Assembly: GCF_016888135.1 (NCBI RefSeq)
Contig: NZ_JACSWB010000280.1
Location: 1 to 60,327, forward strand
DNA: 60,327 nucleotides
Source of the DNA: Leptolyngbya sp. CCY15150
Lineage (GTDB): Bacteria; Cyanobacteriota; Cyanobacteriia; RECH01
Reading direction: 5' to 3'
Shown in pieces: positions 46,489 through 54,558 of the stretch. The position numbers and the translations under genes were made by a program. The notes under the pieces are model-generated. The model saw only the letters and a program-made list of their open reading frames with translations. It was not told the DNA's origin and did no database searches. The first letter of the stretch is position 1, and every line of letters starts with the position of its first letter.

Positions 46489-48237
46489 TCAAGAGAATGC
46501 TTCCAGGGTGGGACCCGCGTCAATCAGCTCTGGGCTTGTGCCATGAATTGCTGCAAAGTTGTCGATAAATCGGCGGGCTAACAGGCAAGCTTGCTGATCG
46601 TAGGCCTGAGCATCTGCCCAAGTCTTCCGGGGATCGAGAAGGGCAAGGGGAACGCCGGGCACCCTATCTGGCACAAAGATTTTGAAGATGGGATGGGCAT
46701 GGTAGGTGACTCGGTTCAAGGTACCATTGAGAGCCGCACTGACCATGGCACGGGTATGGCGAATGGCGATGCGTTGCCCTACGCCATAGGGGCCGCCAAA
46801 CCAGCCGGTATTCACTAAAAATACGGTGGCCGTGAAGTGATGTTTACGCAGGCGATCGCCCAACATTTCAGCATAAAGTGCCGCCGCGAGGGGTAAGAAG
46901 GGTTTGCCAAAACAGGCGGAGAAAGTGGCTTGGGGTTCCGTCATACCCTGTTCTGTACTCGATAGCTTACTCGTATATCCCGACAAAAAATGATACATAG
47001 CCTGGGCGCTGGTGAGCTTGGCGATCGGGGGCAAGACGCCAAAGGCATCCGCCGTTAAAAAGATCACCGTATTGGGATGGTTTCCCAAACCCGATCGTTC
47101 GCTATTGGAAATATAGTCAATGGGGTAAGCAACCCGAGTGTTTTCGGTGAGGGAATGGTCGTCGTAATCAGGAGAGCGATCGCTGGCCCGCAGGATCACA
47201 TTTTCCAACAAGGCTCCTGAGCGAACCGCTTGCCAGATTTGAGGTTCATGCTCTTTCGACAGGCTATTTGTTTTGGCATAGCATCCTCCTTCAAAGTTAA
47301 AGATGCCGTCTTCCGACCATCCATGTTCATCATCACCAATCAAAAACCGCTCTGGATCGGAGGCAAGGGTGGTTTTTCCGGTTCCCGATAGTCCAAAAAA
47401 GAGGGCGGTATGACCTTGAGCATCGCGATTGGCTGCGCAATGCATGGGCAAGACTCCTCGCTTTGTCATGACGTAATTCATGAGAGAAAAGACCGATTTT
47501 TTGATCTCTCCCGCATAGCGAGATCCGCCGATAATCACCAGCCGTTTTGAGAAGTCAATCACAATAAAGGCTTCACTATGAATGCCGTCATGGTCTGGAT
47601 CGCCCTTCAATCCAGGAACAGCAATCACGGTAAAATCTGCATGATGATTTGCTAATTCTGATGGTGAAGGACGAATAAAGAGTTGATGGGAAAAAAGGCT
47701 TTCTGATGCCAGTTCAGTAATGACTCGCAAACCCATTCGGTAGGTTGAATCTGCCCCTACAAAGCCATCAAAAATATAGAGATCTCGCCCTTGAACATAG
47801 GAGAGGATGCGCTGATAGAGGTGTTGAAACTTGAGTTCTGAAATAGGAACATTAGATTCATCCCAATGAATCTCCGCATGATGATCTGGATCATCAACGA
47901 CAAACTTATCCTGGGGCGATCGCCCCATATGGCTACCTGTTTTAACGCAGAGAGCACCATTGTCTGCTAGGATGCCTTCTCCACGAATGAGAGCATGTTC
48001 AATGAGTTGAGGAACCGGCAAATTTCGATAGACATTACCCAGGTTTTTCATGCCTAGCTCAGCCAAGCCATAACAATTGGATGGAGTAGGTTGATAAGCA
48101 CTCCAGGGCTGACGTCCAGCACCATGGTGAGGCTGGTGCCGCGGTTCAGACAGGCTAGAAGCTGTTAACGTCTGCTTATAGAATGGAGAAATCTCTTGCG
48201 TTGATCTAGCACCTGGATCATGGATTCTATAGTTCAT
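46489..48237 (-). CDS. pckA: Phosphoenolpyruvate carboxykinase (ATP)
   Basis: A 582-residue ATP-type PEPCK, interconverting oxaloacetate plus ATP with PEP plus CO2. It shows NGALCVKTGSHMGRSPQDKF, the kinase motifs FFGLSGTGKTTLASDPERFL (Walker A near residue 285) and IGDDEHGW, the FNFEGGCYAKTNSLS segment, and FPLAAALYAEMLGDRL-like C-terminal sequence (here FLPLAAALYAEML). It is about 40 residues longer than the E. coli enzyme at the N-terminus. The extended start is supported by AGGAGA (complement of 48243-48248) 5 nt before the ATG. The extension is polar (RSTQEISPFYKQTLTASSLS) and lacks a signal peptide. It is monocistronic. Confidence 0.95.
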   Translation of the reverse strand: MNYRIHDPGARSTQEISPFYKQTLTASSLSEPRHQPHHGAGRQPWSAYQPTPSNCYGLAELGMKNLGNVYRNLPVPQLIEHALIRGEGILADNGALCVKTGSHMGRSPQDKFVVDDPDHHAEIHWDESNVPISELKFQHLYQRILSYVQGRDLYIFDGFVGADSTYRMGLRVITELASESLFSHQLFIRPSPSELANHHADFTVIAVPGLKGDPDHDGIHSEAFIVIDFSKRLVIIGGSRYAGEIKKSVFSLMNYVMTKRGVLPMHCAANRDAQGHTALFFGLSGTGKTTLASDPERFLIGDDEHGWSEDGIFNFEGGCYAKTNSLSKEHEPQIWQAVRSGALLENVILRASDRSPDYDDHSLTENTRVAYPIDYISNSERSGLGNHPNTVIFLTADAFGVLPPIAKLTSAQAMYHFLSGYTSKLSSTEQGMTEPQATFSACFGKPFLPLAAALYAEMLGDRLRKHHFTATVFLVNTGWFGGPYGVGQRIAIRHTRAMVSAALNGTLNRVTYHAHPIFKIFVPDRVPGVPLALLDPRKTWADAQAYDQQACLLARRFIDNFAAIHGTSPELIDAGPTLEAFS

Positions 48238-48892
48238 TGCTCTCTCCTAAAATGTAGCGATGGTGACGCATACCAGGCCATCAGGCATGTAAACAATCTT
48301 CTACAAAACGTATAAAAAATTACTAGATACCCAACATTCAGATTCTATTTCAGGGGCGATCGCTCTTCAAACTAGAGAGGTTCATCTAGGAATCTCTATG
48401 CTATGTAAACCACTAAAATAGTACTTAATTTCTATTGTGATGTGAATAACAATTTCAAGGAAAAAATATTAAGACAATTCTGTTATGCACAAAAATTTCG
48501 TAATGAATCTACGTCATTTTTCTCGCAATTCTTTATAAGAAAACAGAAATTTTTATCTAGGTTCAACTAATGCAATATATTGCATCCCCAAGCGCCAGCC
48601 CAGGGACATACATCAGAGCCATGAATTAACCCACACTCTAGATTTCGCCTAGCCCTAGACCCTATTCCACGTCTAGTTCATGGTCACAATCTCCATGTCG
48701 CAGCCAATCCGCCAGATGGATGCCCTACCTCTAGGTCTAGCCCCTGATGGAGTTGGCGGATCAAGCGTGAGCAGCTTTACAATTCATCCATCAGAAACTC
48801 ATCGAGTCTTGACAAATCTCCTACGGGTTTCGGCGATCGCTCTAGAAATTTAAACTATATGCAACTAACTCCGCAGCACCCTGTTATCCCAG

Positions 48893-48922
48893 GCAGGGTG
48901 CTTTTTATATCACTTCTTGTGG
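48893..48922 (+). terminator. Rho-independent terminator with no gene upstream
   Basis: GCACCCTG pairs with CAGGGTGC and is followed by TTTTTAT on the plus strand. The nearest upstream plus-strand protein gene is many kilobases away, so an unannotated short transcript in 48.6-48.9 kb is suspected. Confidence 0.7.
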
Positions 48923-48984
48923 GCTCTAGGGCTTGCAGCATCTCGATTAAACTCTAGCCAGGATTTAATCGGAAATTTGTTAAG

Positions 48985-49155
48985 ATTGAGACACCTTGAC
49001 TGCCCGTCATGTCCGTGGGTGCTTTCTTCTCCCGGTTAGAAAAACTGGGTTCTCAGTCCAGACCTGAGGCTTAGCCAGAGAAGGGGCACTGCCTTGAGAT
49101 CCGCCAAATGTTCATAAAAAAAACCCCTGGCAATTGCCAAGGGGCGATTTTTACC
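48985..49155 (+). ncRNA. Candidate structured small RNA with three-way junction and terminator
   Basis: The closing helix pairs 49019-49022 (GTGC) and 49026-49031 (CTTCTC) with 49078-49083 (GAGAAG) and 49086-49089 (GCAC). Hairpin A pairs 49031-49037 with 49043-49049 (one G-U). Hairpin B pairs CTCAG (49052-49056) with CTGAG (49064-49068). About 35 nt later a stem (49124-49144) leads to CGATTTTT. A TAAGAT at 48981-48986 may be the -10 box. G-U pairs in the helices favour transcription on the plus strand. It did not match 6S RNA, SRP RNA, RNase P RNA or tmRNA motifs that I know. The limits are approximate. Confidence 0.4.
49118..49153. terminator. Bidirectional terminator
   Basis: AAAAAAAACCCCTGGCAATT followed by GCCAAGGGGCGATTTTT: the stem CCCC(T)TGGCAATTGCCA(A)GGGG-like dyad is flanked by an A8 tract on the left and ATTTTT on the right, so it can terminate both strands. 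The stronger U-tract (eight) is for minus-strand transcripts, implying a minus-strand RNA from the 49.2-49.7 kb region as well. Confidence 0.7.
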
Positions 49156-49757
49156 TTGCTGTTCTTCAGTTAACTTAAACGATCTTGCTGTTGTTTAACC
49201 TCACTCGATCGGGCGATTTTTTAGCGATCGCTGTCCATCCTCAGAATGAGTGGCCGTTGGGCACCACCTCCCGTTGCGCATGACAAACTCACACCCCATC
49301 TAGGGGCTTGGTAGCCCCGTCGCTTCAGCCTGGAGAGATCTCCATGGGTTGCGTGAGCCATGGCAGTTCCACAAAATGAAACTTTCGTGGAATAGAGGCA
49401 GGGCGATCGGCAATGCGGGGCTGAATCGCAAGCGGATGTGCGCTAACGAACCGTGAGCGGCTCGCTTACCCTTCATTCACGATCAAGGTTGGGCGAGTGT
49501 CTTGCTCCCATGCCGGTTAGCGCCATTCAGCAACGCCATCTGCAGATCTAGGCCAGGAGAGAGCCCGGCGATCGCGTGAACCATCTATCCCCCAACACCT
49601 CGGCTGATCTAAGACGTCTGGGCCTAGCAAGAAAGAGACAGCTCGTACTCTAAGGCAGAGGTAACTCGCCTATTGACCAAGGCAGAAACCCTTGTGTATC
49701 AAGTCCTTTTCGTTGTTTTGTCTTCGTTGTTCTGTCTTGCAATCCTAGGGCGATCGC

Positions 49758-50159
49758 TTAGTCCACCATCAGCAACTTGGGTCGCCACAGCTCTGCCCGA
49801 CAAATATAGCGGCAATGTTGCTTGAGCAGCGCCAGTTGATATGGCGAAGGGACTTGGCGCAGCACATCATAAGCAGCAATGATTTCGGCAATTTGCTGGG
49901 CATTTTGCAGCGGTACACCCACCTCAATCAGTCGCCGCCAGTAGACGGGCATCAGTTGCCGCATTTTGAGCGATCGCTGCTGACCCTTAACACGCTTGGT
50001 GACGGTATATTGAACCATCGCACGGGCAAGTCGTTGTGCTTCGGCCTTGGACATGCCCAGGGCCAAAAAACGCCGGACATACCGTCTCATTGACGGATGA
50101 GATTGAAGTGAAACCCTTTTAGAGGCTGGGGAGGAGACGAACATAGGCAAGGTCATCAT
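49758..50159 (-). CDS. Basic hypothetical protein
   Basis: 133 residues with a strongly basic composition. A Ser-rich start is followed by helices MRRYVRRFLALGMSKAEAQR, LARAMVQYTVTKRVKGQQRS and YWRRLIEVGVPLQNAQQIAE. The repeating (G-x-S/P-x-x-x-A-Q-x-x-A) pattern hints at two related helical units (LGMSKAEAQRLARAM and VGVPLQNAQQIAEII). I do not recognise the family. A GAGGGT lies 5-6 nt before the ATG. RNA or DNA binding is possible from charge, but unproven. Confidence 0.6.
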   Translation of the reverse strand: MMTLPMFVSSPASKRVSLQSHPSMRRYVRRFLALGMSKAEAQRLARAMVQYTVTKRVKGQQRSLKMRQLMPVYWRRLIEVGVPLQNAQQIAEIIAAYDVLRQVPSPYQLALLKQHCRYICRAELWRPKLLMVD

Positions 50160-50988: not shown

Positions 50989-53900
50989 ATGCAATCGAGG
51001 ATCTTAGCAGTCATGCAAAAACCTAGGGGTTCATCCAAAGCTGATCAACTGAAAGACACGGTGCAGTTATCCCCAGCATCTACAACCCTCCCAACCCATC
51101 TTGTTTTCGTTGATTCGAGAGTTGAAAACTATACCGATCTACTCTCCGAACTACCCACCCATGGCGTTGCTATTCTTCTCAACCCAACCCAAGACGCGAT
51201 CGCCCTCATTAGCCAAACTCTCAACCTGTACAGCGATGTCCGCAGTATCCATCTCGTCGCCCATGGATCACCAGGATCGTTAGCCCTAGGACGAGTTCCT
51301 CTCGATCAGGACACCCTGCAGAGCCAAAGCGATCGCCTTCGGGAATGGCAACGTTCTTTGGCATCAGACTCTGAAATCCTCATCTATGGCTGTGAGGTTG
51401 GGGCTGGCCGTCGGGGACAGGCGTTTGTGCAAACGCTGCATGAGCTGACAGGAGCAACGATTGCGGCTTCCTCCACGCCCGTTGGTCATCGCGATCGCGG
51501 CGGCAATTGGGAGCTTGATGTCACCACGGCTCCCCTCCGCAGCGAATTGGCTTTCTCGGCTCAGGTGCGCGATCGCTACCCCGCTGTTCTCTCCGTTCTC
51601 TTTCAAGACAGCTTTACCCTAGACACGGTTCAAGGCCCCTGGATCTATGGCACGGGCCCCGGAACCACCACGCCTAATCCAGCCCTAACCGCTCGTACAG
51701 GCACCACCGGTGCTCTGCCAGGTTTAGCCGGCGGCCCCATTGATGCCGTCGGTGATGGTGCCCTGCGACTCACCGCTGCTGCTCAAAACCAAGCTGCCTT
51801 TGTCATCTACAACAACCCGATCAGCAGCAGTGATGGCTTAGACATTACCTTTGATTTTTACATGTACGGAGGCAACGGTGCCGATGGCATCAACTTCTTC
51901 CTCATCGATGGAAATGTTACTCCCGATAGCGCCGGGGCCTTTGGAGGTTCCCTTGGCTATGCTCAACGAGATTCTGGAGGTCAGGTCGATGGCATTGAAG
52001 GGGGGTATCTCGGCATTGGATTTGACGCCTTTGGAAACTACTCATCCGCTACAGAAGGACGAGTAGGTGGGCCAGGACTAACCCCGGACTCTGTGGCAAT
52101 TCGTGGGCCAGGAGCGGGTCTGAATGGCTACGCATACCTGCGTGGAACAACTGCAATTCCTGGTGGCTTAGATGTGCCAGGTGCTGGGGTTACTCGTGGC
52201 GATGCCCAGAAAACGGCCCGTGTTTTGTTAGAAGATAACGGCGATCTCACCGTATTTCTCGATCTCAATGATGATGGGGACTTTAATGATCCTGGCGAAG
52301 ATATTATCCCCACCTTCAACGTTGTAACAGAAACGGGTGCAGCCATTCCAGATACCTTTAAGTTTGGGTTTGCGGCATCCACAGGTGGTTCAAATAATAT
52401 CCACGAAATCCGTAATCTCACTATTAGTACGGCCAACGATCCTCCCACAGGCCCACAAGCCGATCTGGTGGTTCGTAAAACTGGGCCGAGTGACGTGCTG
52501 CCAGGGGATGAATTCACCTACACCATCACAGTGACGAACAGCGGGCCCAACAATGCGACTAATGTGTCCCTGCAGGATTTACTGCCCGATGATCTAACCT
52601 TTGTGAGTGCATCCAATGGAGGCACCTATGATGCGGTCACCAATACCATCAACTGGACTCCCACCAATCTCAATAATGGTAACCAGGTAACCTATTCCGT
52701 TACAGTTCAAGCACCAGCCACAGCCGGGGTAACCCTCGAAAATACCGCGTTTGTCACGGGCACCCAAGTGGATCCCAATCTCAACAACAACCGCCGCGTT
52801 TTAGCGACCAATGTTGTAAATGAGTTGCCCGAGGATGAGTTAGCCAATCTTAGACTCACCACGATTGGGCCAAGTCGGGTGCGTGGCGGGGATACCATCA
52901 CCTACCGCATCCGGGTGGGGAATGCTGGCCCTGATACCGCCATCAATTTGGTGACGCGCAGTAGCCTTCCGGAGGGCCTGATCTTTGATAGTGCGCCTCG
53001 GGGAACCTACGATGCGGCAACCGGTATTGTGCAATGGAACCTCAACCGTCTAGCCAGCGGCGCAAGTCGAGTCTTTGAGGTGACTGCGATCGCCCCCAAT
53101 CGTAACCTTACCGTGCGGAACGCAGCCACCGTACGTTCGGCGACTGAGGATCCTAATCTTGTCAATAACCGCGATGTCGTTAGCACCCGCATTGTCCGAT
53201 TGGATAACCCTGAGCCTCCAGAGGATGACTTAGCCAATCTCAGACTCAGCATCATTGGCCCCGATCGGGTACAAGGCGGTGAAACCGTCACCTATCGCGT
53301 CCGTGTGCGCAATGCTGGCCCCGATACCGCCACTAATGTAGTGACGCGCAGCCGCCTTCCGGAGGGCCTGATCTTTGATAGTGCGCCCCAGGGATTCTAC
53401 AGTACGACAACCGGCATTGTGCAATGGAACCTCAACCGTCTAGCCAGCGGTGCAGTCCGAGTCTTTGAGGTGAATGCGATCGCTCCCAATCGCGACCTCA
53501 CAGTACGGAACAGCGCGGCGGTGCGTTCGGCGACTGAGGATCCTAATCTTGTTAATAACCGCGATGTGGCTGGCACCCGCATTGTCCAGTTGGTGCCTGA
53601 GCCACCTTGTGAAGATTGCTGCGAAGATGGTGTCACCCTCATTGGCACCAATGCTAATAATGAGCTGGTTGGCACCCGAGACAATGACCGTCTAGAGGGT
53701 CGCGGCGGGGATGATAATCTCCGGGGTCTAGCCTGCGATGATCTGCTGATCGGCGGAGCTGGGGACGATCGCCTCTTTGGCGGCACAGGTGATGATCAGC
53801 TCTATGGCGGTAATAACAATGACATTGCCTATGGTGGTCTTGGGGATGACATTATCTACGGTAATTTTGGCGACGACATCCTCTATGGCAGAACAGGTGA

Positions 53901-54558
53901 TGACACCATCTACGGTGGTAATGGCACTGACATTATCTACGGTGGCCCTGGCGATGATCGTCTCTTTGGTGACGCTGGTAATGATGTCATCTATGGCACG
54001 TCGGGCAATAATTTTATCCTCGGTGGCATTGGTGAAGATCGCCTCTTTGGCGGAAATGAGGACGATCGCATCTTCGGCGGAGAAGACAACGATATCCTGC
54101 GCGGAGGTGCCGGTAATGACGTTCTCAATGGCAATGCCGGCAATGATCAACTCTTTAGCGGCGATGGAAACAACGAACTCTACGGTGGCATAGGAGATGA
54201 CATTCTCCACAGTGGCCCGGGTGCCAATATCCTAGTCGGCGGTGGTGGCTTTAATACCTTTGTGTTTAAGGACACCAATGGCAGACGGGACTCCATTCTG
54301 GACTTTAGTGTGGAGAGAGATTTGATTGACCTCAGTCGAATTTTTGCAGATCCTCGATACAACAATCAGTTCTCCGGGTTCGACATCTTCGATCGCTATG
54401 TTGCTGTCCGACAACTCGGAAGCGATACTGCGATCCGAGTTGATACAGAAGGAGATCTGGGATTTGGCTTCAACGAGGGTGCCGTTCAGGCCATTGTTAT
54501 ACTCAAAGGCATTGATGCTACTCAAGTAACCCGAGATAACTTTATCCTCGCTGCCTAG
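50989..54558 (+). CDS. Large DUF4347 / lectin-like / DUF11 / RTX-repeat surface protein
   Basis: 1189 residues. Order: DUF4347 (about 35-205; THLVFVDSRVENYTDLLSEL, VRSIHLVAHGSPGSLALGRV, ILIYGCEVG); an L-type-lectin-like beta-sandwich (about 205-485; LDITFDFYMYGGNGADGINF); three DUF11 repeats (about 487-610, 613-740, 743-870; TYTITVTNSGPNNATNV and similar); a Cys-rich linker (CEDCCED); RTX nonapeptides (about 885-1080; GGAGDDRLFGGTGDDQLYGG); and a C-terminal region with FVFKDTNGRRDSILDFSVER. RTX repeats bind calcium and usually mark type I secretion with a C-terminal signal. No N-terminal signal peptide is seen, which fits. Probably an extracellular adhesin or matrix protein. No type I transporter is nearby. 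Confidence 0.9.
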   Translation: MQSRILAVMQKPRGSSKADQLKDTVQLSPASTTLPTHLVFVDSRVENYTDLLSELPTHGVAILLNPTQDAIALISQTLNLYSDVRSIHLVAHGSPGSLALGRVPLDQDTLQSQSDRLREWQRSLASDSEILIYGCEVGAGRRGQAFVQTLHELTGATIAASSTPVGHRDRGGNWELDVTTAPLRSELAFSAQVRDRYPAVLSVLFQDSFTLDTVQGPWIYGTGPGTTTPNPALTARTGTTGALPGLAGGPIDAVGDGALRLTAAAQNQAAFVIYNNPISSSDGLDITFDFYMYGGNGADGINFFLIDGNVTPDSAGAFGGSLGYAQRDSGGQVDGIEGGYLGIGFDAFGNYSSATEGRVGGPGLTPDSVAIRGPGAGLNGYAYLRGTTAIPGGLDVPGAGVTRGDAQKTARVLLEDNGDLTVFLDLNDDGDFNDPGEDIIPTFNVVTETGAAIPDTFKFGFAASTGGSNNIHEIRNLTISTANDPPTGPQADLVVRKTGPSDVLPGDEFTYTITVTNSGPNNATNVSLQDLLPDDLTFVSASNGGTYDAVTNTINWTPTNLNNGNQVTYSVTVQAPATAGVTLENTAFVTGTQVDPNLNNNRRVLATNVVNELPEDELANLRLTTIGPSRVRGGDTITYRIRVGNAGPDTAINLVTRSSLPEGLIFDSAPRGTYDAATGIVQWNLNRLASGASRVFEVTAIAPNRNLTVRNAATVRSATEDPNLVNNRDVVSTRIVRLDNPEPPEDDLANLRLSIIGPDRVQGGETVTYRVRVRNAGPDTATNVVTRSRLPEGLIFDSAPQGFYSTTTGIVQWNLNRLASGAVRVFEVNAIAPNRDLTVRNSAAVRSATEDPNLVNNRDVAGTRIVQLVPEPPCEDCCEDGVTLIGTNANNELVGTRDNDRLEGRGGDDNLRGLACDDLLIGGAGDDRLFGGTGDDQLYGGNNNDIAYGGLGDDIIYGNFGDDILYGRTGDDTIYGGNGTDIIYGGPGDDRLFGDAGNDVIYGTSGNNFILGGIGEDRLFGGNEDDRIFGGEDNDILRGGAGNDVLNGNAGNDQLFSGDGNNELYGGIGDDILHSGPGANILVGGGGFNTFVFKDTNGRRDSILDFSVERDLIDLSRIFADPRYNNQFSGFDIFDRYVAVRQLGSDTAIRVDTEGDLGFGFNEGAVQAIVILKGIDATQVTRDNFILAA
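52832..53600 (+). repeat. Tandem ~390 bp duplication inside the surface-protein gene
   Basis: The second and third DUF11 units are near-identical in nucleotides with a 390 bp (130 codon) offset: GATGAGTTAGCCAATCT at 52834 against GATGACTTAGCCAATCT at 53224, and CTTCCGGAGGGCCTGATCTT present in both. The first DUF11 unit is much more diverged, so this is a recent intragenic duplication. Confidence 0.8.

Follow-up and report, generated by a model that had tools for sequence, protein, structure and literature searches.

What does the conserved DNA beside pckA specify, and from which strand is it read? The sequence-only reading of this window (the whole stretch of 60,327 nucleotides analysed, contig C280 of a 5.75-Mb cyanobacterial genome) had proposed a plus-strand RNA with a three-way junction and a downstream terminator at 48985–49155. 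No protein gene lies nearby on that strand, as had been remarked; the interval falls between two genes:

46489–48237, minus strand: pckA, ATP-dependent PEPCK
49758–50159, minus strand: a 133-aa ORF with no Pfam or NCBIfam match

The entire intergenic region between pckA and this ORF was aligned for the window species and its two nearest genomes (G001 and G002, same genus), in both of which the gene order is retained. The three-species alignment revealed a 480-bp conserved island at 48772–49250, which includes 48985–49155, between strongly diverged flanks (about 10–45% identity at 48583–48772 and about 0–35% at 49263–49560). Identity was 80–95% at 48803–48903, 85% at 48963–49003 and 98–100% at 49123–49223, with only 45–52% at 49003–49063. 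Three candidate RNA genes (A, B and C) were recognized within the island. Neither the window nor 48700–49760, which was also searched, gave any Rfam 15 match above the gathering score; weak matches to STnc40, mir-2996 and others were far below gathering and were rejected. The interval 48985–49155 is in a small-RNA locus with no Rfam match. The island had no match in the plasmids or phages searched.

By far the best supported of the three candidates is C, which is read from the strand opposite to the RNA first proposed:

49218–49211, minus strand: upstream box AATCGCCC, at −53
49177–49172, minus strand: −10 element TAAGTT, 6 nt before the predicted start A49165
49165–49116, minus strand: candidate sRNA C, about 50 nt, proposed from its −10, intrinsic terminator, conservation and a homologue in genome G029
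49124–49144, minus strand: terminator stem-loop of C, identified by terminator scan and still paired in G029

The C RNA would begin at A49165 with AGAACAGC and have the layout AGAACAGCAAGGUAAAAAUCGCCCC-UUGGCAAUUGCCA-GGGG-UUUUUUUU, that is, an unpaired 5' tail (AGAACAGCAAGGUAAAAAUCG) followed by its own intrinsic terminator, a conserved stem with a run of U8. A −10 of the form TAnnnT at a fixed 6-nt spacing, together with the box at −53, makes a candidate promoter, and the box is a probable activator site. C is near-invariant in the three species, with 97% identity over 130–140 nt in both relatives, and 49117–49242 is the most conserved stretch of all. The fold z-score for 49114–49166 was −3.4. 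A literature search for published mention of the C sequence listed papers that were unrelated by title.

A homologue of C was identified in G029, a genome of another family, by a plain DNA search (2e-12) and by a covariance model (113.7 bits, for a model that the G029 sequence had helped to build). Its first 26 RNA nucleotides are identical to those of the window C, its terminator has changes in loop and stem that retain pairing, and its promoter has diverged except for the box and the −10. At 3.9 kb the G029 contig is short, and the genome has 8% estimated contamination, which makes its taxonomic label uncertain, and the breadth of C may consequently be overstated; nevertheless, both the promoter sequence and the neighbourhood in G029 differ from those of the window genus. 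DNA, pattern and covariance-model searches, which covered up to 390 genomes of the class and would miss strongly diverged relatives, found no further members of C or of its sibling C' (described below), and within these limits the distribution of C is narrow. Distant DNA and pattern matches for C in other families (L006, L052, L057, L064, L076–L105 apart from L077, L121–L140 and L149–L156) were all rejected, since inspection showed neither a terminator nor a box like those of C, nor a correctly spaced −10. Covariance matches L110–L113 were judged to be chance, with mostly terminator-like hairpins driving the score. In a search for a wider regulon of the AATCGCCC box the remaining matches were also judged to be chance, and one common to the window genome and G002 is inside a conserved 418-aa ORF. 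The 5' ends of C and C' had no match in viral contigs.

The sibling, C', came from a pattern search that required a terminator after GAACAGCAA, and is present in the window genome (contig C153), in G001 (C922) and in G029; it was not found in G002. Its RNA would begin AGAACAGCAAAACUACGAUGCACUA and has its own terminator. C and C' share the 5' end AGAACAGCAA, the same first ten bases, and in all genomes that have them the layout is constant: the box AATCGCCC at −52 or −53, TAnnnT, 6 nt, then A. This constancy, the G029 homologue and the terminator together indicate with high probability that C is an sRNA gene. In G029, C' and C are in tandem on one contig and strand, with C' 673 bp upstream (L005:2139–2034 and 1467–1363, respectively, minus strand), whereas in the window genome the two are on different contigs; this points to an old tandem duplication and later rearrangement. 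A true NsiR1 (RF02399, 57.5 bits) follows C' on the same strand, about 1 kb further downstream, at L142:2532–2585 in C153 of the window genome and at L147:2513–2566. Between C' and NsiR1 is a pentapeptide-repeat protein resembling the Alr5209/HetL families, below the cut-off.

We think it probable that the island brings together short small-RNA genes, each under a promoter of its own, of which C is the main one and B a second, convergent one, with C' as a sibling of C elsewhere. This explanation is favoured because of the conserved island between diverged flanks, the identity and terminator of C, its G029 homologue, the sibling C', and, for B, the plus-strand bias in its folding and the conserved promoter-like block. 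A different explanation is control at the DNA level only, in which binding sites and a bidirectional terminator insulate pckA from its neighbouring gene and there is no functional small RNA. The two strong terminators and several dyads in the island are compatible with this. We regard it as unlikely, however, as a genome of a different family has the identical C 5' tail between the −10 and the terminator, and the first ten bases recur in C', elsewhere in the genome, at the same promoter spacing, and insulation needs no such sequence.

The plus strand, from which the RNA of the sequence-only reading would be transcribed, has the following features:

48945–48970 and 48981–48986, plus strand: promoter-like block, the dyad GATTAAA-N12-TTTAATC and TAAGAT
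48993–49152, plus strand, 3' end uncertain: candidate RNA B, proposed from a conserved promoter-like start and the RNAalifold z-score of its body
49019–49031/49078–49089, plus strand: closing helix of B, 12 bp with one bulge
49034–49038/49072–49076 and 49049–49057/49063–49071, plus strand: inward extension and hairpin of the B consensus
49032–49037/49043–49048, plus strand: hairpin 1 as first drawn, in the window species only
49052–49056/49064–49068, plus strand: hairpin 2 as first drawn, 100% paired in the three species

B is a plausible RNA that would start near 48993 with ACCUUGAC. The spacing from TAAGAT to A48993 is 6 nt, as in C; the poorly conserved segment 49003–49063 is the first part of its body. 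Conserved folding favours the plus strand, as had been suggested from G-U pairs: RNAalifold z-scores for the three-species body, against two nulls of shuffled alignments, were −2.4 to −2.8 on the plus strand and −0.6 to −0.8 on the minus strand, and those for the core at 49017–49093 were −3.8 and −2.3. This bias alone is not decisive because other windows of the same alignment reach z-scores near −3 or beyond. As a single sequence, the RNA first proposed folded no better than shuffles (z −0.26; 74 of 200 shuffles were as good).

All the elements that had been drawn (the closing helix, hairpins 1 and 2, and the stem with a T-run at 49124–49152) exist at those positions. The closing helix and hairpin 2 are also conserved; hairpin 1 is not, with 69% of cells paired and breaks in both G001 and G002, and so neither is the three-way junction. 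The RNAalifold consensus of the three species is instead one long irregular hairpin. Its helices are paired in 94% and 93% of cells with three both-sided-change pairs, a count that shuffles reached in 37 of 500 cases. The closing helix, 94% paired, has two both-sided changes, which the shuffle control reached in 64 of 500. With three sequences and counts within reach of shuffles, covariation in B is thin, and of the three helices first drawn, in all of which compensatory changes had been named as the positive outcome, the closing helix alone showed both-sided changes, and hairpin 1 was broken in two of the three species. The terminator assigned to this RNA also reads better in the other direction: on the plus strand the stem is followed by CGATTTTT, with three bases between stem and T5, whereas on the minus strand eight Ts are directly 3' of the stem, where they would end C. 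A three-way-junction RNA with its own terminator is thus not supported. The place first marked was well chosen, but its strand, structure and terminator were right only in part; the case illustrates that hand-drawn folding of a single strand can flag a real locus yet name the wrong transcript.

These data also bear on whether the plus-strand RNA at 48993–49152 could be the main functional transcript, the conservation of the minus strand then being that of its terminator and 3' flank. The promoter-like block and the plus-biased conserved folding would be expected of such an RNA. We consider this quite unlikely, though, given that 49117–49242 is mostly beyond the 3' end of B, that the G029 homologue keeps only C and C' stands alone, both without B, and that the U-run fits the minus strand better. 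That B encodes a small protein is highly improbable: the window species has an open 21-codon frame from the ATG at 49009 (MSVGAFFSRLEKLGSQSRPEA), but in G001 the ATG is lost to a 9-nt deletion and there is an early stop, and in G002 there is a stop after seven codons. B resembles 6S RNA (RF00013) in being a long irregular hairpin of similar length; it had no match to the 6S covariance model and the 6S RNA of this genome is on contig C157 (91.4 bits), in agreement with the earlier exclusion of 6S.

In the cluster of small-RNA genes that we favour, transcription of C would start at 49165 from the promoter with the −53 box and the TAnnnT −10, and would end at its own intrinsic terminator, with U8 extending to 49116. 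B would probably be a second transcript, convergent with C, the two overlapping at the 3' end of B in the stem that they have in common; if B is transcribed as far as the stem, the overlap would be about 36 nt. Most likely, C acts in trans, its 5' tail AGAACAGCAAGGUAAAAAUCG pairing with mRNAs. Judged from the layout, trans-acting base pairing by the unpaired tail is the most economical mechanism for both C and C', which probably share a regulator and some targets because they have the same first ten bases and promoter layout. No convincing target was found among the neighbouring genes, where the best local duplexes were weak or not conserved, and nothing was found for pckA. The sole lead among the neighbours was GCAAGGU of C against ACCUUGC in codons 3–5 of the 133-aa ORF; this 7-mer is present in the three species, but statistically the lead is weak, and the longer duplex is confined to the window species.

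To our knowledge, few cyanobacterial sRNA families have been described, mostly from model strains. NsiR1 (RF02399), an sRNA of about 60 nt, is known from heterocyst formers. It is similar to C in size and in its simple layout, a short unpaired 5' part followed by a GGGG-type intrinsic terminator, and it has its own promoter, as C would. Like C and C' it occurs in multiple copies per genome; Nostoc 7120 has 12 of them in tandem upstream of hetF (PMC9045159). C' shares the word GAUGCAC with it. However, the 5' sequences differ, the candidate promoters of C and C' have the AATCGCCC box where NsiR1 is reported with a DIF1 motif, and the NsiR1 covariance model did not match C even at E 10, nor C' at E 1. 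Yfr1 (54–57 nt) is also very short, with an unpaired conserved stretch and a terminator hairpin; its motif CACUCCUCACACC is fully conserved and it is in all cyanobacteria examined (PMC4734099). In contrast, on direct reading none of C, C', A and B contains CACUCCUCACACC, and C was found in very few cyanobacteria. The motif of Yfr2, GGAAACA, is not in C or C'. The likeness to the Yfr2 family (for its status, see PMC6778093) is that a single conserved pairing motif is common to several short RNAs in the same genome, as C and C' share AGAACAGCAA.

C and C' most likely form a family of trans-acting sRNAs with a narrow distribution, ordinary in kind and, as far as Rfam and the literature were searched, new as a family. 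A bolder reading, which we hold to be doubtful, is that they are undescribed siblings under an uncharacterised activator that would bind AATCGCCC at −53, and that B, as a convergent structured RNA, overlaps and controls C, the two RNAs with their common bidirectional terminator making up a switch upstream of pckA. As a sibling pair with one defined 5' end, an upstream promoter box in common and a homologue in a distant genome, C and C' would offer a compact, testable regulon in Leptolyngbya-like lineages.

The third candidate of the island, A, is nearer to pckA:

48863–48907 (approximate), plus strand: candidate small RNA A, conserved in three species
48875–48902, plus strand: strong and strongly conserved terminator of A, from the terminator scan

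No copy of A was found outside the genus. Its single-sequence fold z-scores were −4.4 to −5.3, and it is preceded by a conserved upstream region from about 48783. The −10 of A is not perfectly kept in G001 (TGAACT), and its start was inferred from the shared spacing.

Several other elements were observed around the island. A conserved block upstream of pckA (48404–48464, minus strand) contains TTCACA-17-TACTAT at 48446–48418 on the minus strand, the probable pckA promoter, which would leave about 170 nt of leader. On the other side, a long near-perfect hairpin (TTCCACRAAA...TTTYGTGGAA) at 49367–49395 stands out in a flank that has otherwise diverged. Each of the three species has it, but its position shifts and it occurs in either orientation; it may be a terminator or a short mobile palindrome. 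Beyond the 133-aa ORF, 50989–54558 on the plus strand encodes a large protein with DUF4347, DUF11 and RTX-type calcium-binding repeats, which is probably a secreted or surface protein.
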